NCBI GenBank assembly: GCA_905479105.1
Contig: CAJQLE010000003.1
Location: forward strand, 558,001-622,000
Source of the DNA: an uncultured Flavobacteriales bacterium
GTDB lineage: Bacteria > Bacteroidota > Bacteroidia > Flavobacteriales_G > Salibacteraceae
Reading direction: 5' to 3'
DNA: 64,000 nucleotides
The notes beneath the pieces are model-generated. The model searched no databases and had not been told where the DNA came from. It saw nothing but the letters and a program-made list of their open reading frames with translations. How positions within the stretch are numbered: position 1 is the first letter of the stretch; each line of letters begins with the position of its first letter. Both the position numbers and the translations under genes were made by a program. Below are positions 13,701 to 41,948 of this stretch, piece after piece.

Positions 13701-15168
13701 AGCCATTGATGACAAGCGGATTGGTATTTTGACTGACCCCAATTTTATAGATTTGGGCTACGCCTAAACTGTCTGAAATCTCAGGCCAAGTTGCTCCACC
13801 ATCATTGGTGTAATACAATCCACCGTCATTGCAGTTGTATAGTTTTCCATCTAAAGGAGAATATTCTAACCAGTGGTGGTCAGCATGTACCGAAGCTGCA
13901 GTGGGGCTTCCTACCCAATGCGCAGCGCAGTCCCACGTTACTCCACCATCCCACGACTTGAAAATATTTACGCCACCTACGTATACGATATCGGCATTAT
14001 TAGGGTCTGCAGCAATGGCCAAGTCATACCAGCCCTGTCCGCCACCTCCTGTGGCTGAGGGGTTTTCGCTCCACTGTAAAATGTTTGGTGTGGTTGATTG
14101 TGCAGCAAAGGTTAATCCTGCATCGGTTGATTTAAAAAGACCGCCAAAAGCTGAGCTCACGGAACTCACTAAATAAACCACATTGCTATCAGCTGGGGTA
14201 ACTGCTATTGAAAGGCGCTCGCTGGAGGAAAGACCAGAGAGGATTTCGGTCCATGACGCACCAGCATCCGTGCTTCGCCAAAAGTTAGCTCCACCAGATG
14301 TTTCTGTAGCATAAACAATATTTGGATTACCAGGCTGAAACTTCATGTCTTTGAAATTGTTAGAAGGGCTTTCAAGACTCCATGATCCACCGCCATTTAT
14401 ACTTCTGTATACTCCACCTGAAGTGGCCGCCAAAATATAGGAAGGATTGCTAGGATGCATAAGCATTTGCCCCACGGTATTATTTCCCATTCCAGTGTTC
14501 GAAACAAACCAACTAGCTCCGCCATCCACTGATTTATAAACTCCCAGTCCAGGAGCATTGCCTCCATCACGATCGCCCGTTCCGATGTACATGATATTAG
14601 TATTGGTTGGGTCAATAAGAATACTTGAAACGCGAAGGCTCGGAAGATCATCGGTATTTGAATCCCAAGTTTGTCCCGCATTCGTGGTTTTCCAAAGTCC
14701 GCCAGATGCAGATCCAACCCACAATATGGATGGGTTTGTAGGGTGAAAAGCAATATTGTTCAGACGCCCATTTCCATTAGGTTGTCCAGTCCCATTAACT
14801 GGTTTCATGCGCGGCCCGACTTCAGTCCAATCACCATTAATACTCTCAGTGCCTGAAAGGGACTGATTATAGGCTATTCGCCATGAGGTATAATTGCTAA
14901 TGGTTTGGTCTGCTGGTGGAAATGAACCATCAGGATTAACGCGTTCTTGCCAATACCACTCCCATCTTTTAAATACTTTCCATCCATCTCCTCTCGTTCT
15001 TTCTCTTCCATCCCAATATTGCTCAAAAGCACTTTGTGTTTCGTAGAAGTTAGCACTTGGATCCTGCATCATATCGATCCAAACGGGCGTATTTGCGGTG
15101 TCTATTGTTTGAGCTATACTTGGAGTGATAGCCATAACTATCAACAAAGAGAGTAAGATTCTTTTCAT
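10768..15168 (-). CDS. Giant BNR/VPS10-like beta-propeller protein with type A T9SS sorting signal
   Basis: This secreted protein has about 1466 residues. The chosen start gives a clean signal peptide (MKRILLSLLIVMAITPSIAQ); a TTG 9 bases upstream is the alternative. A conserved-looking N-terminal module with FYETQSAFEQYW and FKRWEWYWQERV lies at about 41-77. Many BNR/sortilin-type blades follow (NAGQTWDSN, DGGASWF, DGGVTWD and others, about 120-780), then PKD-like and MAM-like segments with paired cysteines (about 800-1350). The C-terminal 90 residues form the type A sorting domain (LKLYPSPAKETINL-like, ending LPFVKEKQ). It is exported by T9SS and probably surface-anchored; this family is often called glycosyl hydrolase, but I see no catalytic evidence. 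Confidence 0.88.
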   Translation of the reverse strand: MKRILLSLLIVMAITPSIAQTIDTANTPVWIDMMQDPSANFYETQSAFEQYWDGRERTRGDGWKVFKRWEWYWQERVNPDGSFPPADQTISNYTSWRIAYNQSLSGTESINGDWTEVGPRMKPVNGTGQPNGNGRLNNIAFHPTNPSILWVGSASGGLWKTTNAGQTWDSNTDDLPSLRVSSILIDPTNTNIMYIGTGDRDGGNAPGLGVYKSVDGGASWFVSNTGMGNNTVGQMLMHPSNPSYILAATSGGVYRSINGGGSWSLESPSNNFKDMKFQPGNPNIVYATETSGGANFWRSTDAGASWTEILSGLSSSERLSIAVTPADSNVVYLVSSVSSAFGGLFKSTDAGLTFAAQSTTPNILQWSENPSATGGGGQGWYDLAIAADPNNADIVYVGGVNIFKSWDGGVTWDCAAHWVGSPTAASVHADHHWLEYSPLDGKLYNCNDGGLYYTNDGGATWPEISDSLGVAQIYKIGVSQNTNPLVINGYQDNGTAVWDNTLFRTERGGDGMECIIDPNNDNVMYASLYYGNIARSMNNGLSFGGFAAINLNGITEQGAWVTPYILDQNNSDVMFIGYKNVYRTMNALASPPTFIPISASLAGSNSSNMRQLRQGKIDGNRLFAIRSDNKFFRSDNALGAAPTWVDLTSTLPGSGTLRDVETSAFDTDELWIIRNNIVYHSTNGGTSWTSINSNLPLINKNGLVADPFSNEGIYVGTDAGVYYTDNTLPNWIPFDNGLPVNVGVTELEIYHPQGDWVNSRLRAGTYGRGLWQSDLYYPLTLAPTAFLELNIENTSICKPDTIDLINNSAYGATSANWTITPNAGVTFVNGTSASSFNAQIVATQIGFYDIKLVVSNANGMDSIEVLGALEVEAGLSLPLVEDFEDNSPCSTGGCNINCNSFDWTNVANGSGDDDDWRTDFGGTPSPGTGPSLDYAPGTSSGNYMYIESSWCLNQTALLESPCINLDNVSIPEIKFAYHRNGNISQMNDLDVDILSNGTWQNLWTISGVQGDVWELDSIDLTNYIGQNVKLRFNGTSGSEWQSDMAIDGIELTAAPAADFIAIDTVSCVNDAINLLDQSSQSPTSWFWTITPASYSFANGTSQGSQNVSIIFLDTAVYTITLQASNANGISSHTKTDYINVVSPYIGLSSNDSNNIFCEGDTVDLITTPGYALYKFYLNNSLIQLGPNSNVSIFTPQDNDEILVNVTDSNGCSAEEIMTLQEVENPSSVLSSDAENNSICFGDTVLFTNVSDSISEHAFFLQGLLEQQDSLNNWSTAFLSDGDSVRVRIIDNNGCSAWSNAVYMTVWPIPSTPSILDIGDSITTTSLADSYEWSYDDSSTITAENKFAKLGDGSYLLRLFDGNCWSLWSEALIITGINELGGLSIKLYPSPAKETINLRFENIGSIHQGDITVIDMQGKTVKQILNVTFSPSQEVVLNIGELSTGMYNIMLKSEDKQVTLPFVKEKQ

Positions 15169-15252
15169 ATAGTTCAAATTTACTAGTCAGTCGTTTAGAA
15201 AATAAAAAAGACCCTCAAATGTGAGCCTTTAAATTTACTTATGATTTGATTC

Positions 15253-21186: not shown

Positions 21187-22661
21187 AAGCAATAAAGATT
21201 TTTTTAGTTTGCTTTTTAACCTCTTTGAATGGCATAGGGCAGGATACAACATTCCATGTTTCGATTGGAACTCCTGGTGCCGAAGATGCAGTGGATTTGT
21301 TTGAAACCGAAAATGGATTTCTGTTGTTTGGAAGCACAGGATACACAGGTTCAGGACAATCGGATATTTATATTGTTGATTTATCTGAGGACTTAGTCGT
21401 TTCCGATTTTCGAACAATAGGAACTGCTGGCATCGAAAGATTAACATCAGTATGTCAAGGCGATAACGGATCCTTTTTGCTTGCCAGTCATTCTTACAAT
21501 GGATATGCTGTCTCTGATTATGATGTTCGTTTGGATGTTTTGGATAGTGCTGGGATTAGTTTGCTTACAACTATAATTGAGGAGCCTGGCATTCAGATTC
21601 CAATAGATATTTGTTCAAAAGACGATAAGATTTTTGTTCTTGTAAAAAGTTCAGTGATTTCTTCCATTGATGCATACTTCATTTATGTATTCGACTTTCA
21701 ATTAAATGAGTTGCAGTCTTTTAATGTGTCTATTGAAGATTCATTTGCCTTGAATTCGATGGAAATATTGAACAATTCTATTTGGTTGACCGGTGAAATT
21801 ACTCCTGAGGATAGTTTGAATTCCAATTTGTTAACGCTGAAATTGTCATTCTCGGGTAATATTCTGATTCAGAAATCCTTCGGTGGAGCTGGGCGTGACC
21901 TTGGATCTGCTCTTTACTTCGACACAGATTCTACACTTATTGTTACAGGCTCCACTAATTCGTTCGATTCCATAGATTACGATTCTTATATTTTAAGGAT
22001 CGATACTATGATGAACCTTGTTTGGTCTGAGACTTTCGGATTTAATCCTTTTGTGCAGAACAACGATGACTTTGGAGTGAAGACAATTAAAGCTTTTGAT
22101 GGGAAGCTGTATAATGGTGTTTCGACTCGCACTTACGGTGAAGGAGGCGAAGACTTCCATTTATATCAAATGACAAGCGCGGGAGTCTTTGAAGAAGGTA
22201 ATTCTTTTGGCTTATCAAAAACAGAATCGCTTGCCTCAATCATTCAGTCTTCAGACAGTAATTTTTATTTATTTGGAACCACTAATTCCGATGGCTTTGG
22301 ACAGACAGACTTATTTTTAGTTAAAACCCCGACAGCTAGCGTAGGGCCAATTAAAGTGTTTTCAGTTGTTCATGATACTTTAACAGAGGTCACTTATGTT
22401 GTATCAATAACAGAACTTGATAAAAGTCCTGATATAGGTTATTTGATATACAGTGAATCTCGGCCAATTTTCATGTTGAATACATTTCAAAGTGAAGTGA
22501 TCGCTCGCATTTATAATATGCAAGGTCAGCTCGTGCTAGAGGATAGAAATGTAAAAGGAAATGTAAGCTTTCAAGGGCTGAAAACTGGAATTTATAGTCT
22601 TAAGATCGGAAACAATAAAATCGGTTTTCAAGACATTAAAGTTATCACTCCAACACAATAA
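21183..22661 (+). CDS. Exported beta-propeller-like protein with type A T9SS sorting domain
   Basis: The start at 21183 gives MKAIKIFLVCFLTSLNGIGQ, a normal signal peptide, and overlaps the DUF5723 stop (ATGA). The body (about residues 20-400) contains repeated segments such as LLFGSTGYTGSGQSDIYIVD and LFGTTNSDGFGQTDLFLVKT, which look like beta-propeller blades. The last 80 residues form a type A sorting domain (ARIYNMQGQLVLEDRNVKGN, LKTGIYSLKIG). The last 17 bases overlap the convergent PorE-like gene. It is probably a T9SS cargo coupled to the two upstream envelope proteins. Confidence 0.78.
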   Translation: MKAIKIFLVCFLTSLNGIGQDTTFHVSIGTPGAEDAVDLFETENGFLLFGSTGYTGSGQSDIYIVDLSEDLVVSDFRTIGTAGIERLTSVCQGDNGSFLLASHSYNGYAVSDYDVRLDVLDSAGISLLTTIIEEPGIQIPIDICSKDDKIFVLVKSSVISSIDAYFIYVFDFQLNELQSFNVSIEDSFALNSMEILNNSIWLTGEITPEDSLNSNLLTLKLSFSGNILIQKSFGGAGRDLGSALYFDTDSTLIVTGSTNSFDSIDYDSYILRIDTMMNLVWSETFGFNPFVQNNDDFGVKTIKAFDGKLYNGVSTRTYGEGGEDFHLYQMTSAGVFEEGNSFGLSKTESLASIIQSSDSNFYLFGTTNSDGFGQTDLFLVKTPTASVGPIKVFSVVHDTLTEVTYVVSITELDKSPDIGYLIYSESRPIFMLNTFQSEVIARIYNMQGQLVLEDRNVKGNVSFQGLKTGIYSLKIGNNKIGFQDIKVITPTQ

Positions 22662-24594
22662 ACTCGGTCCTTCTATTCAATGCCCTTCCTTCATCTGTTT
22701 CGTTGGTGGCTATCGGTTTGGTTTGTCCGTAGCCTTTATACATTAACCTTCCGCCACTTATTCCATGGTCAATAAGATATTGATATACAGCCTTAGATCG
22801 GTTTTCTGAAAGCGTTTGGTTGGCTGCTGCATTGCCTTGATTATCTGTATGTCCAGATACTTCAATTTTTATGTCAGGATTGGCATCAAGCAAGTCTGCT
22901 AATTTGTTGAGCTCTGTTTTTGATGCAGGCTTTAAGTCAAATTTATCCGTGTCGAAAAACACATTTTTAAGCACCACACTTCTTCCAGCTTCTATGGGTT
23001 GTAATTCAATGTTTTTCGTGTAATGACTTTTATTGGTGGCAAGGTCTAATTCAAAATTCTCACTGTGAAAAAGATAGCCTTGCTTATCTGCCAATAGCGC
23101 GTAGTTTTCACTTGCAGGTAATACAACGAGAAATGAACCACTCTCTCTATCAGAACTAGCTAATGCTATAGTGTCGCCTGAGCCTAGGTCTATCAATGTG
23201 AAAAATGCTTCCAATGGCTTTCCAGTGGCTGCGTCTTTGATCTTTCCTTGTAGGTAGGTTACCGGATTTGGTTTCAGAGCTTCTGGCAGTTCAAAGGAGT
23301 ATAAATCTAGCTTTCCATATCCACCTTCACGGTTGCTAGCAATGATCGCATACTCTCCGTCAGCACTTACAAAGAAACTGTTTTCATGCTCTGGCGTATT
23401 GATTGGGTAACCCAAATTAACAGGATCAGACCATGTACCGTCATCGTTTTTGCGCGACATAAAAATGTCCATGTTGCCCAAACCAACATGTCCGCGTGAT
23501 GAGAAGTAAAGTGTCTTATTATCTGGATGAATGAATACAGATTCCTCATCTTCAGTCGAGTTGATGTTTGGTGGCAACGCTTGCGCCTTTGCCCATTTCC
23601 CATTGATCAACTCTGAAAAATAGATGTCATCAAATCGATCGTGCTCTTTGTTATATCTACCTCTTACGAAATAGAGTGTTTTACCATCTGAGGCGAAACT
23701 CGGTTGGCTTTCCCAGTGTTTGCTGTTGATGGTTTGTCCCATGTTGATTGGTCTCGACCATGACTTTCCATTTCTCACAGACACAAAAAGGTCACAACTT
23801 CCGAAGCCTTCTTTGTCTTGTCCATACTGTCCATACAAATCACAGATGGTGAAAATGATGTATTTACCGTCTGGTGAAATCGTTGGCGCTCCTTCTCTCC
23901 AAGATGAATTAATAGGTCTGCCAGGATTATAAGCTCTTCCCCATGAACCGTCTTCTTGACGTTCTGAGAAAAAGAAATCTTCATCTTTTCCGTCAGGACT
24001 CATAGGATTGTTTGGTGCGTCAAACTCACGCGTGTAAATCAATAATTCCTGATCTGCAGTCATAGCAGGGAAATACTCGTCATTTTCTGAATTGACTCCA
24101 GGACCAAGGTTTTGCGGTTCAAAAGGCACGGGATGATCCATCGCCCACATAGCAAATTCACAATTGGCTGCACCTCTTTTTGCCGCTTGATAGTTGTTTG
24201 ATTCAGGTGGAGCTATGGTCATGTATTGCTCATAATAGCCCAATGCTTTTTCGAAATTATCTTCCATTTGAGCCATCATGGCGAGTGTGACAATCAAACT
24301 CGGAGCATAGCGCTCATTTTTAGCTACAATGGATTCAATGTGCTTTTTTGCATCCGCTGTCTTACCCATTTTCATGTACATGTCACTCAGGTCAAAGAGG
24401 GCATCTAAGTATTCGGGATCCCTCTCGAGGGCTTTTTGAAAATAGATCTCAGCCATCTCCACCCGTCCAAATCGCTTATGTTGGCGAGCTTCCTCATAAA
24501 ATTTGGAGGCTTTATTGTCTTCGGTTCCTCCTCCCTGGGCAAAAGCTCCAGTAATTGAAAGCAGGATAATAAGAATCGTTAATAGCTTTTTCAT
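22645..24594 (-). CDS. PorE-like protein: TPR, PD40 beta-propeller, carboxypeptidase-regulatory and OmpA domains
   Basis: The start at 24594 (MKKLLTILIILLSITGAFAQ) overlaps the queE stop by ATGA and gives 649 residues. Domain order: TPR helices (about 28-145), five PD40 propeller blades (PAMTADQELLIYT, TISPDGKYIIFT, SFASDGKTLYFVRG, FIHPDNKTLYFSSRG, FVSADGEYAIIASN; about 160-435), a carboxypeptidase regulatory-like fold (LQGKIKDAATGKPLEAFF, about 450-525), and an OmpA peptidoglycan-binding domain (FDTDKFDLKP to the end). This is the architecture known for PorE of the T9SS. Unlike PorE of Porphyromonas it has a type I signal with no lipobox cysteine. Flavobacteria have several paralogues of this shape, so a T9SS role is likely but not proven. 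Confidence 0.85.
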   Translation of the reverse strand: MKKLLTILIILLSITGAFAQGGGTEDNKASKFYEEARQHKRFGRVEMAEIYFQKALERDPEYLDALFDLSDMYMKMGKTADAKKHIESIVAKNERYAPSLIVTLAMMAQMEDNFEKALGYYEQYMTIAPPESNNYQAAKRGAANCEFAMWAMDHPVPFEPQNLGPGVNSENDEYFPAMTADQELLIYTREFDAPNNPMSPDGKDEDFFFSERQEDGSWGRAYNPGRPINSSWREGAPTISPDGKYIIFTICDLYGQYGQDKEGFGSCDLFVSVRNGKSWSRPINMGQTINSKHWESQPSFASDGKTLYFVRGRYNKEHDRFDDIYFSELINGKWAKAQALPPNINSTEDEESVFIHPDNKTLYFSSRGHVGLGNMDIFMSRKNDDGTWSDPVNLGYPINTPEHENSFFVSADGEYAIIASNREGGYGKLDLYSFELPEALKPNPVTYLQGKIKDAATGKPLEAFFTLIDLGSGDTIALASSDRESGSFLVVLPASENYALLADKQGYLFHSENFELDLATNKSHYTKNIELQPIEAGRSVVLKNVFFDTDKFDLKPASKTELNKLADLLDANPDIKIEVSGHTDNQGNAAANQTLSENRSKAVYQYLIDHGISGGRLMYKGYGQTKPIATNETDEGRALNRRTEFIVLE

Positions 24595-25208
24595 GGTATC
24601 TGCATGTACTTGTGCGTTTGAAGAGAAACGCGCCATTTTGGATGTTGCTTAATGTATTCCACAATCAATGGCATCATAGCATCTCGTTTGCTCCATTCAG
24701 GTTGTAAATACAATTTGCATTCATCATGGATTTTGGATGCATGTTCTTCAGCGAAGGCAAAATCTGATTTATTAAAAATCACCACCTTCAATTCTTGTGC
24801 CTTGTTGTAAAATTCAGCCGTTGGGGCTTTGAACTTTTTTGGGGAAAAAGTAATCCAAGACCAATCTCCTGATAGAGGATAGGCGCCAGAAGTCTCTAGA
24901 TGGACAGATTTACCTGTCTTTTTCAAAGCTTCGGTCAATGCATCTAAATTATACATCATAGGTTCGCCTCCTGTGATTACTACAAAGTCCAACCCACTCT
25001 CTTCAGCAAGTTTTACTAAGGCTTCAATAGACATTGAATCATGTCCTTGATCTGGCCAACTTTCTTTTACATCACACCAATGGCACCCGACATTGCATCC
25101 TCCGATTCGGATAAAAAAGGCTGGTGTTCCTGAATAAAACCCTTCTCCTTGAATAGTGGGAAAGTGTTCCATTATTGGAAAGTGTGAGTTTACAATGGGT
25201 GCTGTCAT
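24591..25208 (-). CDS. queE: 7-carboxy-7-deazaguanine synthase QueE
   Basis: This radical SAM enzyme converts CPH4 to 7-carboxy-7-deazaguanine in queuosine (and 7-deazapurine DNA) biosynthesis. The 205-residue product has the iron-sulfur motif at C38, C42 and C45 (GGCNVGCHWCD), preceded by FPTIQGEGFYSGTPAFFIR. FVVITGGEPMMY binds SAM. Length is typical. It shares a transcript with the PorE-like gene. The other queuosine genes (queC, queD, queF) are not in this window. Confidence 0.93.
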   Translation of the reverse strand: MTAPIVNSHFPIMEHFPTIQGEGFYSGTPAFFIRIGGCNVGCHWCDVKESWPDQGHDSMSIEALVKLAEESGLDFVVITGGEPMMYNLDALTEALKKTGKSVHLETSGAYPLSGDWSWITFSPKKFKAPTAEFYNKAQELKVVIFNKSDFAFAEEHASKIHDECKLYLQPEWSKRDAMMPLIVEYIKQHPKWRVSLQTHKYMQIP

Positions 25209-26749: not shown

Positions 26750-26899
26750 TCGATATTAACTGGCAACTCATTCCTCTTCAATGCGACTTAAAAACGAATG
26801 GTGAATAATTTTGTCGAAATGTGTTCTTATATTCGCTATCGCTAATTAAATAGCTCTTTTAAACATTGCGTTACCTGTGATTCTCTAAATACTTTGATC

Positions 26900-29800
26900 T
26901 TGAAAAGAATATTAGCTCTTCTAACGATTTTCATCGCTTTTGCATGTATTTTGCCTGACTCAGTCAAAGGACAATGCGCTGGAAGCCCTATTGTTTTGCC
27001 AATGAACCAAAATAATGGTCAAGATGGTTTGATGTTTAATCTTACTGCGTTGACTGATGTTACAGTAGATTCGGTTTGGGGCAATTTTGCTGCTGGAACA
27101 ATTGGAGTAGCTGAAATATGGTCATGTCCGACAGGAATTGTTGGAAATCAGGCTAATGCTGGGGCCTGGACCCTAGCGGGAAGTGCGAACAATGTTGTTA
27201 GCGCTGGGATTAATAATTCTACTCAAATTCCTGTTTACATTAATGTTCCAGTGTTGAACGGAACTACAACAGGCTTTTATGTGACTAGTACAGGCGCAAG
27301 TGGACCGATTATGAGATATACAAATGGTGTCGGTACTGCTGGTAATTTCTACATGGGCAATGGAGATATTTCTATTTCTCAAGGCTACGGAAAGGACTAT
27401 CCTTTTGGCGCGTCATTCAATCCGAGACAATTTAATGGGCACGTTTTCTACAGTTGTTGTCCCACACCTGCTGCTCCTCAGGGGCCAATAATCGGTGATA
27501 CAACGAGCTGTATAGGTGATACGGTAACTTTTTACGTTCCGTTTGACACGAATGCAGTTTCATATACATGGACAGTTCCGGCAGGAGATACAATCATATC
27601 AGGAGCCAATGATTCTCTCATGACAATGGTTGTTGGTCCGAATTCTTCAGGTGGTCAAATATGCGTATCGCTTACAGATACTTGTACCGCTAGTCCTGAC
27701 ATATGCGTGAACTATAGCATTAATCAGCCAGCAGCTCCACCAGCCATTAGTGGTGTTGTGTCGATTTGTCAAAATGATAGTGCTTGGTATTCAGTGACGG
27801 CATCTGCAAGTATTATTAGTTACAATTGGTTTTTACCTCCGGGTGCTTCCTTCCTTTCAACTCAAGATAGTAATGAAGTTCATGTTCAATTTGGTTCTAA
27901 TGGAGGTGATATCTGTCTTCAGGTTACAGACTCTTGTGCAACCAGTGATAGCGTTTGTTTAAGCGTTACTATTAATTCCAATCCAACACTTGCTAATGCA
28001 GGACCGGATAGAACGGTATGCGCTGGAAACATGGCGAACTTAGCGGCTACTGCTGCAGCTAACGGAATTGGTTTATGGTCGGTTATTTCGGCTCCTGGTG
28101 CAGGTTCTTTTACAGACACTGCTGATCACCAATCTGGATATTCAACACTCTCTCCGGGACAACATATACTAAGATGGACAGTTTCTTCTGCTGGTTGCCC
28201 GAGCACCTCGGATATGATGAATGTTGATGTTATAGCAACACCTGCAGCCAATTTCACCACGGCAAATGTCTGCGAAGGAACACCAGTTTCTTTCCAAGAT
28301 TTAAGCGCTAGTAATGGCACTTCAATTACTTCATGGTTGTGGGATGTCACAGGAAATGGAGTGGATAATTACTCCAATCAAAACCCGACACACAATTATA
28401 ATTCTCCTGGGATTTACAATGTAAGATTGATAGTGAGCGCCCAAGGTTGTGCGGACACATTGTATCAAAACTTAGCGGTCAATCCAATGCCTGTGTTGAG
28501 TGTTGTGGCTGAAGATGTCTGTTTCCAAGATCTTGTTGAGATTTCAAATACCTCAACAATCAGTTTAGGTTCTATCGATTCAGTTTCTTGGGATTTTGGT
28601 GATGGATCAGGTGTTCAAACAAGCTTTGGTGCAAGTGTGAATTTGGCACCCAACCACACCTATGGTCTCCCTGGGCAATATACCATCAATCACACGGCTT
28701 ATTCGGATCAAGGTTGTGTTGCGAATGCGGTAATTCCTATTGAAGTGTATCATTTACCAGTGGCTGATTTTAGCGCGGTCAATGCGTGCCAATTTCAAAC
28801 GACAGGCTTTAATGATTTAAGTACGATTGTAGGGGCGAACATTGATAAATGGTCATGGAGCTTTGGTGATGGAAATGATTCAGCGTTTGTGCAGAATCCA
28901 TCGCATGACTATGAAGTGAATGGTTTTGTTGATGTCACTTTATTGGTGCAGACGGATGAAGGCTGTATAGATCAAAAGACAGTGAGTTTAGAAGTGTTTC
29001 CAACGCCTGACAATGAATTCAATTATTCCAATCGGGTATGTTTAGGGGATACTCATTTCTTAGACGATCAATCTACCATTGCTTATGGATCTATAGATCA
29101 GTTCCTCTGGCAAATTGATGATTCGATTGACTATGTTGGGGCTAATGTGTGGCATTTGTTTGATGAAGTAGGCCTCTATAAAGTGGAGTTAACAACAGAA
29201 TCTGACAATGGATGTCGTGCTACAATTGAAAAGGAGATTCCAGTATTTGCCATTCCAGAGGCTGACTTTGTATTCACCAATGAATGCGAGGATGAATTGA
29301 TAAGCTTTTCGGACAGTACTAGTTTCAATAACGAGTCAATTTTTAGTTACTCATGGGATTTTGGAGATAGCACAGGATTGGTGAGTGAGCAAAATCCGAA
29401 ACATGCATTTGAAACTTTTGGGATTTATGATGTCACTTTTAAAGTAGAGTCATATAAAGGGTGCATTGGCACAGTAACTTATCCGGTGAAAGTTTATGAA
29501 AGAGTAATTCCCAACTTCACTCCAGTTCCAGATAGCGGTTGTTCACGATTGTACGTTGCTTTTCTTGATTCTACGGAGAGTTTCACGGATAGAGATTTAA
29601 AATATAAGTGGTATTACGGAGATGGATTTAGTCGATTTGATACTGCTGAATACACCTATGTAAATAGTTCTGGGAGGGTAAGAGCGTATGATGTTACACT
29701 AGAAATATTGACCGATGAGGGTTGCTTAGGATCTACTACACTTGATAGTTCTATTACTGTGATCCCACAGCCAATAGCTGCCTTCAGTAGTGATCCAGAA

Positions 29801-30307
29801 CTTGACAAGTTGAAAACAACCAATCCATTGGTACAATTCAAGAACGAGTCGATTCAAACCAATTGGCTGGTATGGGATTTTGGAGACGGTGAAATATCTA
29901 GAGAACAGAATCCAGCCCACGAGTATAAACTGGAAGGAGAGTATGAGGTTATGCTGGTCGCTAGAAATGTCTATCAATGTACTGATACATTGAGGAAAAC
30001 GGCAATTGTGAATCATGCCAACATTCCCTTTATTCCTTCGGCTTTCACGCCCAATGGAGACGGTATTAATGACTTTTTCTCGATTGATGGTCTTCAGGAT
30101 GTGTCAGATGTGACCCTTGAAATATTTGACAGATGGGGACATTTAATATTTCAAGGCGATGGTCTAGATGTTCAATGGGATGGATCAAATAACCAATCTA
30201 GAGTGGTTCAACAAGGCGTGTACAATTACAGATTGTTATACACTGATTCCTTCGGAGAGAGCTTTGAAGTGTCAGGAAACTTAAGCGTAGTCGGAGTAGA
30301 GAAATAA
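26900..30307 (+). CDS. Giant PKD-repeat adhesin with gliding-motility (type B) T9SS signal, copy 1
   Basis: The protein has about 1135 residues and starts at a TTG (reads MKRILALLTIFIAFACILPD; another TTG lies 6 bases upstream). After the signal peptide comes an N-terminal domain (about 26-195) ending in a double cysteine (YSCCP). Ig/PKD-like modules follow, with at least seven PKD repeats from about 465 marked by WDFGDG-type motifs. Nearly every repeat has a cysteine near its start and another in a closing GC. The C-terminal 95 residues form the type B sorting domain (FIPSAFTPNGDGINDFFSID). It is a T9SS surface adhesin or filament candidate. It is the first gene of a four-gene cassette, with 4 bases to the next gene. 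Confidence 0.88.
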   Translation: MKRILALLTIFIAFACILPDSVKGQCAGSPIVLPMNQNNGQDGLMFNLTALTDVTVDSVWGNFAAGTIGVAEIWSCPTGIVGNQANAGAWTLAGSANNVVSAGINNSTQIPVYINVPVLNGTTTGFYVTSTGASGPIMRYTNGVGTAGNFYMGNGDISISQGYGKDYPFGASFNPRQFNGHVFYSCCPTPAAPQGPIIGDTTSCIGDTVTFYVPFDTNAVSYTWTVPAGDTIISGANDSLMTMVVGPNSSGGQICVSLTDTCTASPDICVNYSINQPAAPPAISGVVSICQNDSAWYSVTASASIISYNWFLPPGASFLSTQDSNEVHVQFGSNGGDICLQVTDSCATSDSVCLSVTINSNPTLANAGPDRTVCAGNMANLAATAAANGIGLWSVISAPGAGSFTDTADHQSGYSTLSPGQHILRWTVSSAGCPSTSDMMNVDVIATPAANFTTANVCEGTPVSFQDLSASNGTSITSWLWDVTGNGVDNYSNQNPTHNYNSPGIYNVRLIVSAQGCADTLYQNLAVNPMPVLSVVAEDVCFQDLVEISNTSTISLGSIDSVSWDFGDGSGVQTSFGASVNLAPNHTYGLPGQYTINHTAYSDQGCVANAVIPIEVYHLPVADFSAVNACQFQTTGFNDLSTIVGANIDKWSWSFGDGNDSAFVQNPSHDYEVNGFVDVTLLVQTDEGCIDQKTVSLEVFPTPDNEFNYSNRVCLGDTHFLDDQSTIAYGSIDQFLWQIDDSIDYVGANVWHLFDEVGLYKVELTTESDNGCRATIEKEIPVFAIPEADFVFTNECEDELISFSDSTSFNNESIFSYSWDFGDSTGLVSEQNPKHAFETFGIYDVTFKVESYKGCIGTVTYPVKVYERVIPNFTPVPDSGCSRLYVAFLDSTESFTDRDLKYKWYYGDGFSRFDTAEYTYVNSSGRVRAYDVTLEILTDEGCLGSTTLDSSITVIPQPIAAFSSDPELDKLKTTNPLVQFKNESIQTNWLVWDFGDGEISREQNPAHEYKLEGEYEVMLVARNVYQCTDTLRKTAIVNHANIPFIPSAFTPNGDGINDFFSIDGLQDVSDVTLEIFDRWGHLIFQGDGLDVQWDGSNNQSRVVQQGVYNYRLLYTDSFGESFEVSGNLSVVGVEK

Positions 30308-30311
30308 TCAA

Positions 30312-30689
30312 ATGATGAAGAGTTTTAAGATAAATAAAATGACCAAAAAGCAAATCTATTTTGTGGCAATAATTTTTGCAGTGAGCTTTTTCACCAATAA
30401 GGCCTATTCTCAGGCTTCAGACGCATCAGGCTTGCCTTATTACGTTCCTGCTATCATGGAGATAATAACAGATGCTGCAGAGCAACCAACGGATACCAAT
30501 GCATACGTAAGTATGTTGTTTGAAGCTCAGGACTTTCCAGAAATTGTTTTGGGAGAAGAACTCGAGAATGAAACGTTGAGTGAAATTGAAGAATGGGTTT
30601 CAACGCATGCTGCTATAATGCAAGAATTCCAGCAGGAAAGAAAAATAAATTACGATAAGTTTTACTTAGAACAAGGAAATAACCAATGA
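30312..30689 (+). CDS. Small exported protein paired with adhesin 1
   Basis: The 125-residue protein has a long N-region and a signal peptide ending NKAYSQ; an internal ATG (MTKKQIYFVA) is an alternative start. The mature part is acidic and mostly helical, with NAYVSMLFEA, FPEIVLGEEL and EEWVSTHAAIM. No sorting signal is visible. Its stop overlaps the start of adhesin 2 by 4 bases (ATGA). It appears distantly related to the small protein at 33822 (NA[YF][VI], [FV]P and W[VW][SA][ST]H line up in order). Function is unknown; a role with the adjacent adhesin is inferred from the gene order. Confidence 0.7.
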   Translation: MMKSFKINKMTKKQIYFVAIIFAVSFFTNKAYSQASDASGLPYYVPAIMEIITDAAEQPTDTNAYVSMLFEAQDFPEIVLGEELENETLSEIEEWVSTHAAIMQEFQQERKINYDKFYLEQGNNQ

Positions 30690-33600
30690 TCAAATCAAAG
30701 CGAATATTAAAGTCGGTGAAGGTGTTATTGGCATTCATGCTTTTAGTAACATCTAGTGTAGGTTATTCTCAAACGCCTATTCCTATTGGACCTCAGAGCA
30801 ATACATTCACGAGTATGGTCAGGGGATACCATTTTATAGCACCCGTAAATTTTACAATTTGTGGTTTATATATTCCAACGGATGCTTCAATGGGATTGCA
30901 ATCTGTAGAGGTTGTTAAGTTTACCAACGCTGCACCTCCAGCTTTTCCTGGCACTACAAATGCTTTCACATCCCAATTTTATTCTCCAAGTTATCCTACC
31001 AATGCGATGATTCCTTGTAACATTCAAATCAATATAGGTGATATTGTGGGTGTCTATGGAGCGAGAGCAGCCAATATGGTAAATAGTTATGATGGTGTCA
31101 ATTATGCGTCAACCATATCTACCTTGCCAGTTACATTCTCTAGATCAGGAATGCAGGCAAATCTTTCGACAGGTCAAATGGCCAATATTTGGTCAGAGGT
31201 AAATTATAATATTGGAAGGATAATCATGTATTATGAATGCTGTCCCGATCCTCCCACACCTCAACTTACAGCTGCACCCACACAAATTTGTTCAAATGAT
31301 ACGTTTACCTATTCTGCGGCTGCTTATGCTTTTGCAACTGGATATACTTGGGATTTTGGTAATTCAGGTACAATTGTAGGTGCTAATATTGATAGCTCTG
31401 AAGTACAGGTGACTTATGATGGAACAGTCGTATTTGACACGGTGTGTTTGACCATGTTTGATTCTTGTTCGAGCAGTGACACTTGTTTTCCAGTAGTGAT
31501 TAATCCACCTTTTGCTTTTGCTGGAAATGATACTTCTATTTGCTCTACTACCTTCCAATTAAATGGAAATCAAGGTAACGGATATTGGACTGTACTAGGA
31601 GGTGCTGGAACGTTTTCCAACACCAATGACTTCAATTCATCCGTCAGTGGATTAGCACCGGGAGTGAACACGCTGTCATGGACTATTTCAAATAATAATT
31701 GCCCTGCGATAACCGATGAAATTAATATCACGGTTAAACCTGTTCCTGTTGCACAAATGATTGTGCCCGATGGATGTGATCAAGGACAGATTCAGTTTGT
31801 TGATGACTCATACGCTCTTAATGGAAATATCATTGATTGGAATTGGGATGTTGACGGTGATGGAACATTTGATTATAGCACCAATACGTTTAATCACACG
31901 TACGCTGCACCTGGAACATATCAGTGCACGTTGGTTGTAACCGCGAATCAAGGATGTCAAGACACATTGGTAGAACCAATTATTGTTCACCCGAATCCTG
32001 TAACTGACTTCTCCTACAATAGTGATTGTGAAGGCAGTCCTATGGCTTTCAATGATCTTACGGTAATTTCTTCTGGATTCATAAGTGATTGGGAGTGGGA
32101 TTTTGGCGATGGAACAACTAATAGTTTAGCTCAAGGTCCAGCGCACGTATATGCAAATGCTGGTTTTTACTGGGTTTCATTGACTGCTACCAGCAATGAA
32201 GGGTGTACGGTCACTCATTCTGATTCGGTTCAAGTTTATTCTATACCAGATATTGACTGGTTGTCTCCTGAGATGTGCCAGAATGATACCGTCTTTTATG
32301 CTGATTCATCAACATCAGTTGAAGGCGTGATTAATTACTGGGAATGGGATTTCGGTGATGGTTCACCGATTGATTACAACCAACATACAGCACATAAGTA
32401 TCCAACGCATAATCTTTATTCTGTTCGATTAACGGTTGCTACTAATTTGGGATGTACAAATACTGTAGTGAGAGATCAGCGTTCATTCCCCGTTCCTCAA
32501 CCTAATTACCTTCAAGATGGAGTGTGTGAAGAACAGCGAGTAACTTTTACAGATAATTCAACGGTGAGCAATATGTTCGGATCCACATTCGCAAGTTTCC
32601 GATGGAACTTCGGTGATGGAGATAGCGCCATTAATCCTTCCGTAGGTCATTTTTATCAAGATCCGGGCCTCTACACTTTAGCGCTGACTCCTTATACTAA
32701 CTATGGATGTCATTTCACTTTTGAAGATGAGATTCTGATAAGACCTAGACCAGACGCTAAGATTTTGGTTGTAGACGATAAAGTCTGCGCTCGAAATGAG
32801 ATCAGCTATCGTGATCAAACTTATTTTGACTATGAGTTTGATGCAGTAGGAGTGGTAGCTTGGAATTGGCAGTTTGGAAACGGTGCATCATCATCATTGC
32901 AAGACCCTAAAAACGTTTTTGCTAAAGGCGGAGATTATAGCACATTACTCACAGTTGAAACGGGTTATGGGTGTATAGATTCTACAAGAAAAACTACAGT
33001 CATTTATCACAATCCAAAGGCTGAATATCGCATGGACACACTCGAAGGATGTTCTCCTCATTGTGTTACGTTTATCGATGAGTCTAAATTATCTACCGGT
33101 GAAGATTTAATTTACAATTGGAATTTCGGTGATGGACAAATTGATGTCGAAAATGTGAATCCAACGTATTGTTATGCCATTCAGGATGGGGCTAGTGATG
33201 TATTGTTTAATTCATCTTTAAGGGTGACTTCGCCTAATGGATGTTCTGATTCATACAGCAGTCCAGGTCGCATAAAGGTTTATTCAAATCCGATTGCTGA
33301 TTTTGATGTTGGTTCTGTTTCAGTAAGTGAATTAGAGCCAGTTGTGCTGATTGATAATTACTCTGTTGGAGGCGATTATTGGAGTTGGGATTTTGGTGAT
33401 ACTAGTTTTAGTTCGCTCTTCAATCCAATAAAACATGAATATGCTGAGCCGGGTATTTACGAGATTCAATTGGTTACTCTAACAGAGTTCGGTTGTAGAG
33501 ATAATATCTCAAAGCGAGTGAATGTGGAAAGACTACAGACAATCTTCATTCCTTCAAGTTTCACTCCAAATGGAGATGGTGTCAATGACTTCTTTGAAGT

Positions 33601-33817
33601 TTACGGGGCCGATCTTCAAGAGGTTAAGCTTTGGATTTTTGATCGATGGGGTAATGAATTATTCTATGGTGAAGATGACTTAGCAAGGTGGGATGGTAAG
33701 ATTGAAGGCAAGCTGCTTCCAATAGGTGCTTATGCTTATGTATTAGTCTATAAGCAATCTGATCAAATCAGACAAAAGAAGTCGGGAAATTTTGTAATCT
33801 CTAGATCAAACAATTAA
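30686..33817 (+). CDS. Giant PKD-repeat adhesin with gliding-motility (type B) T9SS signal, copy 2
   Basis: The 1043-residue protein starts at an ATG overlapping the previous stop (MIKSKRILKSVKVLLAFMLL, signal ending GYSQT). The N-terminal domain (about 30-185) ends in YYECCPDPP, mirroring copy 1. About seven PKD modules run from residue ~375 to ~945 (WEWDFGDG, FRWNFGDGD, WNWQFGNG and others), most opening and closing on a cysteine. The C-terminal type B domain (FIPSSFTPNGDGVNDFFEV) ends FVISRSNN. Layout and motifs show it is a paralogue of copy 1 rather than a duplicate of recent origin. T9SS export and surface location are inferred from the C-terminal domain. Confidence 0.88.
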   Translation: MIKSKRILKSVKVLLAFMLLVTSSVGYSQTPIPIGPQSNTFTSMVRGYHFIAPVNFTICGLYIPTDASMGLQSVEVVKFTNAAPPAFPGTTNAFTSQFYSPSYPTNAMIPCNIQINIGDIVGVYGARAANMVNSYDGVNYASTISTLPVTFSRSGMQANLSTGQMANIWSEVNYNIGRIIMYYECCPDPPTPQLTAAPTQICSNDTFTYSAAAYAFATGYTWDFGNSGTIVGANIDSSEVQVTYDGTVVFDTVCLTMFDSCSSSDTCFPVVINPPFAFAGNDTSICSTTFQLNGNQGNGYWTVLGGAGTFSNTNDFNSSVSGLAPGVNTLSWTISNNNCPAITDEINITVKPVPVAQMIVPDGCDQGQIQFVDDSYALNGNIIDWNWDVDGDGTFDYSTNTFNHTYAAPGTYQCTLVVTANQGCQDTLVEPIIVHPNPVTDFSYNSDCEGSPMAFNDLTVISSGFISDWEWDFGDGTTNSLAQGPAHVYANAGFYWVSLTATSNEGCTVTHSDSVQVYSIPDIDWLSPEMCQNDTVFYADSSTSVEGVINYWEWDFGDGSPIDYNQHTAHKYPTHNLYSVRLTVATNLGCTNTVVRDQRSFPVPQPNYLQDGVCEEQRVTFTDNSTVSNMFGSTFASFRWNFGDGDSAINPSVGHFYQDPGLYTLALTPYTNYGCHFTFEDEILIRPRPDAKILVVDDKVCARNEISYRDQTYFDYEFDAVGVVAWNWQFGNGASSSLQDPKNVFAKGGDYSTLLTVETGYGCIDSTRKTTVIYHNPKAEYRMDTLEGCSPHCVTFIDESKLSTGEDLIYNWNFGDGQIDVENVNPTYCYAIQDGASDVLFNSSLRVTSPNGCSDSYSSPGRIKVYSNPIADFDVGSVSVSELEPVVLIDNYSVGGDYWSWDFGDTSFSSLFNPIKHEYAEPGIYEIQLVTLTEFGCRDNISKRVNVERLQTIFIPSSFTPNGDGVNDFFEVYGADLQEVKLWIFDRWGNELFYGEDDLARWDGKIEGKLLPIGAYAYVLVYKQSDQIRQKKSGNFVISRSNN

Positions 33818-33821
33818 TAAA

Positions 33822-34145
33822 ATGAAGAAGTTGAATCAATTCAAAGCCATACTTATTCTGATAGCTGTGATGTTTGGTTTTTCTGGCTTTGCTCAGAGTA
33901 CAAATGTCGCTGATGATGAACAACCTATATTGTCGTATGATACCTATGCGATCGCTACAGAATGGAATGCTTGGCACGAAACACCGAATGCTGCAAATGC
34001 GTTTATTGGTGAATTTATGACCGAGTTTAATGTTCCTCAAACAACAGTGAATCCAGGCTTGACATTATTCAAAACTTGGCAATGGTGGGCTTCACATAAT
34101 GAAGCTGCTGTAGAAGAATACATTTCTCGGAGAGACAATCAATAG
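33822..34145 (+). CDS. Small exported protein paired with adhesin 2
   Basis: The 107-residue protein has a signal peptide (MKKLNQFKAILILIAVMFGF to GFAQ). The mature part is short and aromatic-rich, with TPNAANAFIGEFM and LFKTWQWWASHNEA. It starts 4 bases after the stop of adhesin 2. It resembles the small protein at 30312 over about 50 residues. Its LFKTWQWW resembles VFKRWEWYW in the N-terminal module of the giant VPS10-like protein at 10768. No T9SS sorting domain is present, so it probably stays in the periplasm or is released. Function is unknown. Confidence 0.7.
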   Translation: MKKLNQFKAILILIAVMFGFSGFAQSTNVADDEQPILSYDTYAIATEWNAWHETPNAANAFIGEFMTEFNVPQTTVNPGLTLFKTWQWWASHNEAAVEEYISRRDNQ

Positions 34146-39384: not shown

Positions 39385-39993
39385 ATGAAATTTACTCTCC
39401 GTCATCTTTGGATTGCTCTCATAGCGGTTGTTTTGTCTTCCTGTGTAGGGAATAAAAAACTGGTCTATTTACAAGATAAAGAGGCTAAGGGAAGTGAACG
39501 TTACGAGAAAGACGTCAACCTACCTTCTATAACCGATACTTATCTCCTCCGTCCTGGCGATATTCTTTTTGTAAACATGCAGAAATTCGTGGTAGGAGAA
39601 GAACTATTTAGTATTTCAGGTTTCGAACAAGCCAACCGTATTGGGCAAATGCAACACCCATTTCTTCAAGGCCATAATGTAGACGGTGAAGGAAACATTG
39701 ACTTACCACTTCTAGGAAAAGTTAAGGCGGAAGGACGATCCATAGATCAATTAAAAACAGAGCTGAAAGGTGCTGCGATGAAGGAGTATCCCGGGGCCGT
39801 TGTAGAATTGTTTCTATTGGACGGAATGGTTTCTGTCTTGGGCGAAGTGAATAACGCTGGAAGATATCCCATTTATAAATCCAAGAACACTATTTTCGAT
39901 CTTATTGCTTCAGCGGGTGATTTGGGAGATTATGCCAATCGTTCCAGCATCAAGATATTGAGAGAAAAGGATTTATCCCTCAATTCCAAGTGA
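39385..39993 (+). CDS. Polysaccharide export (Wza-like) lipoprotein, C-terminally truncated
   Basis: The 202-residue protein has a lipoprotein signal (MKFTLRHLWIALIAVVLSSC). The polysaccharide biosynthesis/export domain starts at YLLRPGDILFV (about residue 53), and an SLBB-type domain follows (VSVLGEVNNAGRYPIY, about 155). Family members in Bacteroidota are usually about 255-275 residues and end in a YYLxPNDVVYV-type strand and a membrane helix; both are missing here. The stop comes just after KILREKD, exactly where the frame of the next ORF begins. No tyrosine kinase or capsule genes follow. See the finding on this junction. Function is likely lost or altered unless the join is an artefact. 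Confidence 0.78.
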   Translation: MKFTLRHLWIALIAVVLSSCVGNKKLVYLQDKEAKGSERYEKDVNLPSITDTYLLRPGDILFVNMQKFVVGEELFSISGFEQANRIGQMQHPFLQGHNVDGEGNIDLPLLGKVKAEGRSIDQLKTELKGAAMKEYPGAVVELFLLDGMVSVLGEVNNAGRYPIYKSKNTIFDLIASAGDLGDYANRSSIKILREKDLSLNSK

Positions 39994-41948
39994 TGGGAGG
40001 TCAAATGACGGGTCAGAAGACCTATTTAGACGTTGCTTTAAGCGGCTTGCTCATTGAAGGAACACTGAAGGCACAATTCGATTTGATGAAGTTGCTGAAT
40101 GAAGATTCGAAGTTGGAAGTTTCTCCAAACATCGGTGTTGCGGCTGGGTATTATACATCGGAGATTACACGTGAGAGTACGGGAGCTCCTGTTGATAATT
40201 CATTTAATGTAAACCAAGACGAAACCTTTGGTTTTGCTGCAGCTTGGGGAGGCCGTGTAGGCTATCAAATCAACGACACATGGAGTGCGTTTACAGGATT
40301 GGACATGCGTTACTACTTGACTGATCAGTTAGATGCTTACCAGGGTTTGAATTTACCAGCGAACGTTGAGTCAGGAAATGACTGGACATCTTATGCTTAT
40401 GTAGGTGTAGGATTTACATTGCCTCCTGGAAAAGGAAATACAGGTGATATTGAGAAAGATATTGATCCAAAAAGACTATTCAACGGTCAGTTTACGTTTA
40501 ACAACTTGCCAAAGTCTGGTGTGAAGTTAGAATTGTATGATGATAAGGATGAGTTATTGTCTACAACCGAAACAGACAACAGCGGTAACTTCAGCTTTCC
40601 TAAGTTGAAGCCAAACAAAGAATACATGGTTCGTCTTGCTGATGAGGATGCGGATCTGGGTAAGAATGGTAAGATATACGTGATCAACGAGGCGAGAGAA
40701 AAAGTAGCCATTGCGGACAAAAAAGGTGATAACAGATTTGTGTATACGCACATCACTCAAGATGAGGTGGCCATGTTAGCTCCAGTTGAAGTAGAGACCG
40801 AAGAAACGTCCATGAAAGGTTTGTTTACTTATAAGAAATTAGCGAAAGGTGGAGTGAAGTTGAATTTGTATAACCAAAGTGGTGAGAAGGTTGCTTCTAC
40901 GGTAACGGATATTGGTGGTCAATTCAAATTCCAAGGCTTGAGCCCTGATGAGGCATATGTGGTGAGATTGAATGAAGACGATAAAGACCTCTTCAATGAA
41001 GGCCGCTTGTATATGTTGAACAGCGAGAATAAGCGTATCGAGAAGACAGTGCGTCCTAAGTTCAATGAGTTCACATTCGATCAAATCGGAATTGAAGAGG
41101 CTGATAAGCTGCCAGTATTGGTTGAAACGGATGACGAAGCGAAAATGAAAGGTGTGTTTGTTTACAACGACCTTCCGAAAGCTGGAGTTAAGGTTTACAT
41201 CATAGATGATAAAGACAACAAGATTGATTCTGTGATCACTGGAGTAGATGGATCCTTCCAATTCTCTGAGTTGGTGCCAAACAAGGATTACATGGTGAGA
41301 ATAGATGAGAAATCAATGACAGATACGAAAGGTGTTGACATGTTCTTCTTGAATGCTGACAACGAGCCAGTAATGAGAGCAGGCGCAGAGAAAGACAATA
41401 AGTTCTCTTTCTCAGCACTTCCTGAAGATGAGATTGCAGGCCTTCAAGTATTGAAGGTTGAGCAAGCTGGAGAAGGCAAGTTGCTCTACAGAAGAGAAAG
41501 TGTTGATGGGGAATACGTTTCTGCGACAGATGGAGATTCAGCTGAAGTGCATGCTTTTGATATTGTTGAAGGAACTCCAGACTCTAAGGATGAGCCTGTG
41601 AATAAGAAGACGAACATTTACAATGTAGACTTCGAGAAAGAAACAATCTTCTTTGAGCATAATAAGTACACCATATCTCAAGATCAAACAGGATCTAAAG
41701 GTTCTGTGATCGCCAAGAAGATGAAGGCAAATCCTGCGATGCGCGTTCAGATCCAAGGCTATGCTTCTCAGCCTGGAACGGAGGCTTACAAGAGACTGTT
41801 GAGTCAGCGTAGGGCGGATGAGTTGAAAGAATTGTTGGTTCAGAAGTATGGTATCGACAAAGGAAGACTCGAGGCGATTGGCAAGGGAGAAGATCCATCA
41901 GCTGATGCTACTGAGGCAAGAAGAGCTCGAATCATCATTCTTGAATAA
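39990..41948 (+). CDS. OmpA-family outer-membrane protein with three Cna-B-like repeats, N-terminus missing
   Basis: The ORF opens at GTG 39990 or ATG 39993 with MGGQMTGQKTYLD and no signal peptide. Residues 1-150 are the later strands of a beta-barrel (VSPNIGVAAGYYTSEI, WGGRVGYQINDTWSAFTGLD). Three repeated modules of about 100 residues follow (LPKSGVKLELYDDKDELLST, LAKGGVKLNLYNQSGEKVAS, LPKAGVKVYIIDDKDNKIDS), each closing with a MVRLADEDADL-type strand; these look like prealbumin/Cna-B folds. The C-terminus is an OmpA peptidoglycan-binding domain (VQIQGYASQPGTEAYKRLLS). Full-length relatives would begin with a signal peptide and further strands, so the 5' part is lost. The 3' end has a good terminator. 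Confidence 0.8.
   Translation: MMGGQMTGQKTYLDVALSGLLIEGTLKAQFDLMKLLNEDSKLEVSPNIGVAAGYYTSEITRESTGAPVDNSFNVNQDETFGFAAAWGGRVGYQINDTWSAFTGLDMRYYLTDQLDAYQGLNLPANVESGNDWTSYAYVGVGFTLPPGKGNTGDIEKDIDPKRLFNGQFTFNNLPKSGVKLELYDDKDELLSTTETDNSGNFSFPKLKPNKEYMVRLADEDADLGKNGKIYVINEAREKVAIADKKGDNRFVYTHITQDEVAMLAPVEVETEETSMKGLFTYKKLAKGGVKLNLYNQSGEKVASTVTDIGGQFKFQGLSPDEAYVVRLNEDDKDLFNEGRLYMLNSENKRIEKTVRPKFNEFTFDQIGIEEADKLPVLVETDDEAKMKGVFVYNDLPKAGVKVYIIDDKDNKIDSVITGVDGSFQFSELVPNKDYMVRIDEKSMTDTKGVDMFFLNADNEPVMRAGAEKDNKFSFSALPEDEIAGLQVLKVEQAGEGKLLYRRESVDGEYVSATDGDSAEVHAFDIVEGTPDSKDEPVNKKTNIYNVDFEKETIFFEHNKYTISQDQTGSKGSVIAKKMKANPAMRVQIQGYASQPGTEAYKRLLSQRRADELKELLVQKYGIDKGRLEAIGKGEDPSADATEARRARIIILE

Follow-up and report, generated by a model that had tools for sequence, protein, structure and literature searches.

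Four nearly touching genes in the genome of an uncultured Flavobacteriales bacterium encode two giant adhesins, A and B, and two small exported proteins, a and b, which raises the question of whether the small proteins serve the adhesins and, if so, which part of which adhesin each of them accompanies. We addressed it by analysing the 64,000-nucleotide stretch of DNA that contains the locus (hereafter the window) together with related loci in other genomes.

Composition of the four-gene cluster

All four genes lie on the + strand in the order A-a-B-b, and their coordinates (Table 1) confirmed the gaps of 4, -4 and 4 bases between neighbours given in the initial annotation of this DNA; the negative value corresponds to the overlap of the stop codon of a with the start codon of B (ATGA). 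The start of A may be either of two nearby TTG codons, at 26894 or at 26900. Promoter and terminator scans yielded window signals no better than those of shuffled sequences. A DUF4301 gene and a phosphoglucomutase gene flank the locus, in the window and in sister genomes alike. The PorE-like gene of the window is found two genes away from the adhesin cluster, a position kept across the genus.

Table 1. Features of the adhesin locus and other genes of the window (NTD, N-terminal domain).
Feature	Position	Strand	Description
Adhesin A	26894-30307	+	1137 aa: signal peptide, NTD type I (~residues 27-189, FYSCC end), PKD/PKD_6 repeats, type B T9SS sorting domain
NTD type I of adhesin A	26972-27460	+	CC end; resembles the NTD of B, not the NTD of A, in most sister genomes
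Small protein a	30312-30689	+	125 aa (116 aa if start at 30339): signal peptide, ~90 aa mature, acidic, four predicted helices
Adhesin B	30686-33817	+	1043 aa: signal peptide, NTD type II (~residues 27-186, YYECC end), PKD repeats, type B T9SS sorting domain
NTD type II of adhesin B	30764-31243	+	Predicted beta sandwich; conserved cysteines
Small protein b	33822-34145	+	107 aa, diverged Trp-rich paralogue of a, after core B
PorE-like protein	22645-24636	-	TPR-PD40-OmpA protein (NCBIfam T9SS_PorE 284 bits, cut-off 600)
Type A T9SS protein	10768-15177	-	Large Sortilin-Vps10/MAM/PKD protein with type A T9SS tail
OmpA-like protein	39990-41948	+	Repeated short modules (KGxFxYxxLxKxGVKLxLY); directly 3' of a polysaccharide-export-like lipoprotein gene

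Both adhesins harbour a type B sorting domain, with scores of 58.5 (A) and 61.0 bits (B) for TIGR04131 (cut-off 35) and of 73.0 and 61.4 bits for CHU_C, and both contain six to seven PKD_4 stretches in addition to PKD_6. The layout that they had been described as sharing is real for the PKD core and the type B C-terminus (33% identity) and for the CC ends of the NTDs, but the two NTDs have no match to each other. No PorP_SprF match was found at the adhesin locus, and the eight over the cut-off in this genome are all located elsewhere, so that A and B resemble 'orphan' type B substrates. An adjacent PorP/SprF gene is common but not required, as 3 of 12 type B genes of F. johnsoniae lack one (PMC12618676).

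Small proteins a and b form one family

The sequences of a and b match each other in blastp with E = 2e-4, and comparison of the profiles of their orthologues with hhalign, the check proposed in the initial annotation, aligned them well above background (probability 97.6%, E = 3.5e-12). When only the mature sequences were considered, the a-profile gave up to 16.9 bits on b proteins and the b-profile up to 18.9 bits on a proteins, with 500 shuffles reaching at most 7.6 bits. The window pair alone is modest in this respect, its score being attained by 35 of 5000 shuffles. The ordered motifs reported as common to both proteins (NAYV/NAFI, FP/VP and WVSTH/WWASH, for a and b, respectively) are all present. 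Thus, a and b are members of one homologous family of small exported proteins, previously unnamed.

Both proteins have a signal peptide, and neither a lipobox nor a T9SS sorting signal was found on them. Searches with the small proteins gave no match over the cut-off in Pfam or NCBIfam, and in the PDB no sequence match of note and no fold match at E < 3. The AlphaFold2 model of the mature small protein consists of four helices, with pLDDT values mostly above 90. The b protein is a diverged paralogue of a, confined to the genus of the window; a form intermediate between the two occurs in G015, and a search with a b-only profile returned nine loci from the same species as those already sampled. 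Weak hits to the family in G024, G472, G349 and G118 were discarded as partial matches within other, longer open frames. Hits with E > 0.001 from the initial single-sequence searches with a and b were not borne out by the profile.

Linkage of a to adhesins with a type II NTD

Adhesin NTDs form two groups without mutual similarity, type I (NNGQDG...) and type II (GPQ...RGY...), neither of which has a match in Pfam. NTD II is modelled as a beta sandwich with moderate confidence, and a fold search with it returned weak beta-sandwich matches only (PHR, PHM), none at E < 0.01. It has up to four conserved cysteines: in the set associated with small proteins, Cys33 and the terminal CC never vary, and 87% of the members have Cys85. 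These residues are largely kept in the NTD II of family f21 (see below) and largely missing from the remaining NTD II proteins. A role of the CC motif akin to that of the SprF twin cysteines was considered and dropped, since the latter are periplasmic, in a barrel, and the former belong to an exported adhesin (PMC12635249). Domains similar to NTD I and NTD II are also present on ~860-aa proteins coded beside ribosomal protein genes (L164 and L165, in G004 C1 and G001 C15); these proteins lack type B tails and have no small neighbours.

We examined the good hits of the small-family profile in 395 genomes of the class and in all 87 genomes of family f43. The class search scored the best candidates per genome only, so that it may have overlooked a few divergent copies. 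Copies were found in three Bacteroidota families only (f1, f35 and f43). In 30 of 30 loci (10, 1 and 19 in these families, respectively), the a-type gene lies immediately upstream of the gene of an NTD II adhesin and on the same strand; like the gene of a dedicated chaperone, it is thus exclusive to one cargo type. The gap between the two genes in f43 ranges from -20 to 21 bases, the lower value possibly reflecting start-codon choice. The reverse search with NTD II in this family gave a concordant picture. Its 19 high-scoring NTD II domains coincide, locus by locus, with the 19 small genes; below them the score falls from 204 bits to 138, and the 23 hits beyond this step all lack a small gene. 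The adhesins checked with Pfam, three in f43 and one in G019, are of type B with PKD or Ig repeats; in f35, the NTD II adhesin beside the small gene runs off the contig, and the neighbour on the other side is of type B.

The initial annotation had expected homologues of the small proteins directly downstream of type B PKD proteins, each serving the adhesin before it. Every readable copy does adjoin a type B adhesin, and the genome context agrees with service to adhesins; however, a sits upstream of its NTD II partner, which argues against its pairing with A. As a goes with NTD II and directly precedes it in every case, its partner in the window would be the downstream adhesin, B.

The association is not obligatory for the domain. 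Six f21 genomes, of one other genus, encode an NTD II adhesin that has no small gene beside it, and the one example checked with Pfam is of type B, so NTD II can function without the small protein, at least in f21. High-scoring NTD II domains without a small gene are also found in G329:C64 and G165, on short proteins with type A-looking C-termini. In genus g36 of f21, adhesins with NTD II but no small gene are coded next to adhesin-like open frames of up to at least 2600 aa (L157-L159, in G059, G252 and G381).

Exchange of NTDs and co-inheritance of a

The order a-A-B-b is found in five genomes of the genus (G004, G005, G006, G007 and G009), and the broken assemblies of G002 and G012 are consistent with it; A-a-B-b is restricted to the window and its sister G011. 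G001 has the order A-B-b, with two NTD I and no a. Outside the genus, G019 harbours a single unit of a followed by an adhesin gene, and in G015 a single small gene, whose product combines a and b character, follows A-B; both adhesins of G015 carry NTD II, the small gene that they share lying after the second. In f43, f35 and G019, the unit consists of the small gene and then the adhesin gene. Part of the proposal that an ancestral two-gene unit was duplicated therefore stands: since A and B are homologous, and a and b as well, duplication of an adhesin gene and a small gene is still likely. The adhesin-then-small order of that unit does not, the current layout of the window being a later rearrangement. 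Two further observations concern G009, in which adhesin A is split in two overlapping open frames of 944 and 200 aa (L044, 8737-12173) through a frameshift or an assembly error, and in which the start of another contig (L045) carries part of a second, near-identical copy of B and b.

In most sister genomes NTD II is part of A and NTD I part of B. The reverse holds in the window and G011, with cores A and B still orthologous, and in sliding comparisons both adhesins switch at the FYSCC/YYECC motif, around residue 181 of A. The NTDs of A and B have thus been exchanged at the CC motif in the window lineage, and a moved along with NTD II.

Identities across the genus follow the same partition. Those of a correlate with those of NTD II (r = 0.85, or 0.80 when sister pairs are excluded) and weakly or not at all with those of the cores, b or the flanking genes (r between -0.03 and 0.30 for cores and flanks, sister pairs excluded), which correlate with one another. 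The trees of a and of NTD II each join the window and G011 to G005 with a support of 100. In contrast, the core tree joins them to G007/G009 with a support of 99 and rejects the a/NTD II grouping (p-AU 0.013); conversely, the core grouping is rejected by a plus NTD II (p-AU 3.6e-9). The flanks also join the window and G011 to G007 and G009, with a borderline conflict (p-AU 0.056). Identities and trees agree, and a and NTD II thus move as one cassette.

The putative client of b

The gene of b is directly 3' of core B in all 10 readable loci, and a further b is present in G008 at a contig end. NTD I occurs at all b loci that could be read, and b is present without a in G001. With sister pairs excluded, the identity of b correlates with that of core B (r = 0.74) and less so with that of NTD I (r = 0.30); it also follows the flanks. 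The pairing of b with B in the initial annotation agrees with the position of b after B in ten loci, but we judge it unsupported as it was stated. The b gene is a duplicated, diverged copy, the product of which we tentatively take to serve the other adhesin or NTD I.

Proposed function and alternative explanations

The tie of the small family to one front-end domain of adhesins suggests a dedicated, previously undescribed helper. We propose that this Sec-exported four-helix family is accessory and dedicated to giant type B T9SS adhesins, and that a acts as a periplasmic escort that binds NTD II; we give this reading, in which we infer the binding, the periplasmic site and the chaperone role, a probability of about 0.5. 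The ancestral unit would have been a small gene almost touching the gene of an adhesin with NTD II, an arrangement with the small gene first, such that the small protein would be made just before the adhesin. Mature a would stay in the periplasm after Sec export, a location deduced from missing signals only, that is, from the lack of a sorting domain and of a lipobox. There, it would bind NTD II emerging from Sec and hold it soluble, correctly folded or off the envelope until the adhesin, by way of its C-terminal signal, is exported by the T9SS. When the NTDs were swapped between A and B in the window lineage, a went along with NTD II and would thus now serve B. The escort model is built on the upstream position of the small gene, the near-touching genes, the presence of a Sec signal without a T9SS signal and the exclusive linkage to one NTD; the f21 NTD II adhesins without a small gene, the sharing of a single small gene in G015 and the tracking of core B by b argue against it.

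The main rival of the escort model is a co-exported tip subunit, in which the small protein would bind NTD II in the periplasm, travel through the T9SS pore with the adhesin as its passenger, and remain at the surface as part of the binding tip or as a cap. Genomic context and co-inheritance speak for it in the same manner, and the exclusive link is to the far-tip domain rather than to the anchored C-terminus. Moreover, a diverges faster (27-38% identity to more distant sister species) than NTD II (47-51%), which suits surface exposure. However, the small protein has no sorting signal of its own, T9SS export of a second chain as a passenger was not found in the literature searched, and the f21 adhesins manage without it, so that we see this explanation as possible but rather improbable.

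Both of these readings involve physical contact, and the interaction of a with NTD II is putative. As a and NTD II are adjacent, linkage suffices for their joint transfer and could explain co-inheritance without contact: a might be a separately acting exported protein that is co-regulated with the adhesin and moves with it. We find this unlikely, as a tie to one domain type over three families, and never elsewhere, would be hard to keep without a functional tie, and as small genes are missing next to the 23 NTD II hits of lower score in f43. Even less probable is the model of the initial annotation, a tandem-duplicated adhesin-then-small unit in which A is the client of a and B that of b. The homology within each pair of genes and the location of b right after B in all ten visible loci agree with it, but in every one of the 30 loci a precedes the NTD II adhesin, only the window and G011 have the A-a-B-b order, and it is NTD II, not core A, that a tracks.

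Extending the escort model, one may envisage a second, N-terminal layer of T9SS cargo specificity. Interchangeable cassettes of a small exported escort and its matching NTD would be exchanged among giant type B adhesins at the CC junction, with paralogous escorts (a and b) matched to different NTDs. This generalization is speculative, and we hold it to be possible though doubtful.

Comparison with known systems

The published partners of type B substrates are the PorP/SprF proteins, outer membrane beta barrels that recognize the C-terminal sorting domain (PMC12618676, PMC9143113). The present locus resembles the SprB-SprF and PG1035-PorP systems in that a dedicated partner gene is found beside that of a type B T9SS adhesin, cognate PorP/SprF pairs being specific (PMC12618676, PMC9143113). 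Unlike these barrels, which act on the C-terminal domain, a and b are helical proteins of ~90 residues tied to the N-terminal domain. With 107-125 aa, an all-helical model for a and no match to Pfam PorP_SprF, they do not correspond to a 14-strand outer membrane beta barrel of ~300 aa. A functional parallel might be SkpA, a Skp homologue in the T9SS Extended Translocon that is also a helical periplasmic helper acting on T9SS export, as we propose for a (PMC10994853). However, SkpA is general and part of the translocon, whereas the small family is linked to its cargo, and no homology of a or b to Skp was detected in Pfam, NCBIfam, PDB sequences or PDB folds.

The class I chaperones of type III secretion are cytoplasmic and encoded directly upstream of their cargo. 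By analogy, a is a small acidic protein whose gene lies just upstream of that of one cargo, the N-terminus of which is its likely target; the type III chaperones differ by their cytoplasmic location and their fold, a having a Sec signal and its cargo a C-terminal signal. The open literature that we searched, subscription papers being outside its scope, describes no small partner of this kind for type B substrates. The initial annotation, which knew of no named system with such a small partner, was right in this respect, as no named family or solved structure matched either.

The analysis thus gives a genomic context to a family of small proteins that had no annotation. The natural exchange of a and NTD II offers a direct test of partner specificity, with the NTD II adhesins of f21, free of small genes, as a natural negative case. 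A partner of this kind would bear on how the tip domain of a giant adhesin remains competent while in the periplasm, or on what sits at the tip outside. Type B T9SS specificity is known to involve the C-terminal domain and a barrel shuttle; a partner of the tip domain at the N-terminus would add a control point distinct from these.
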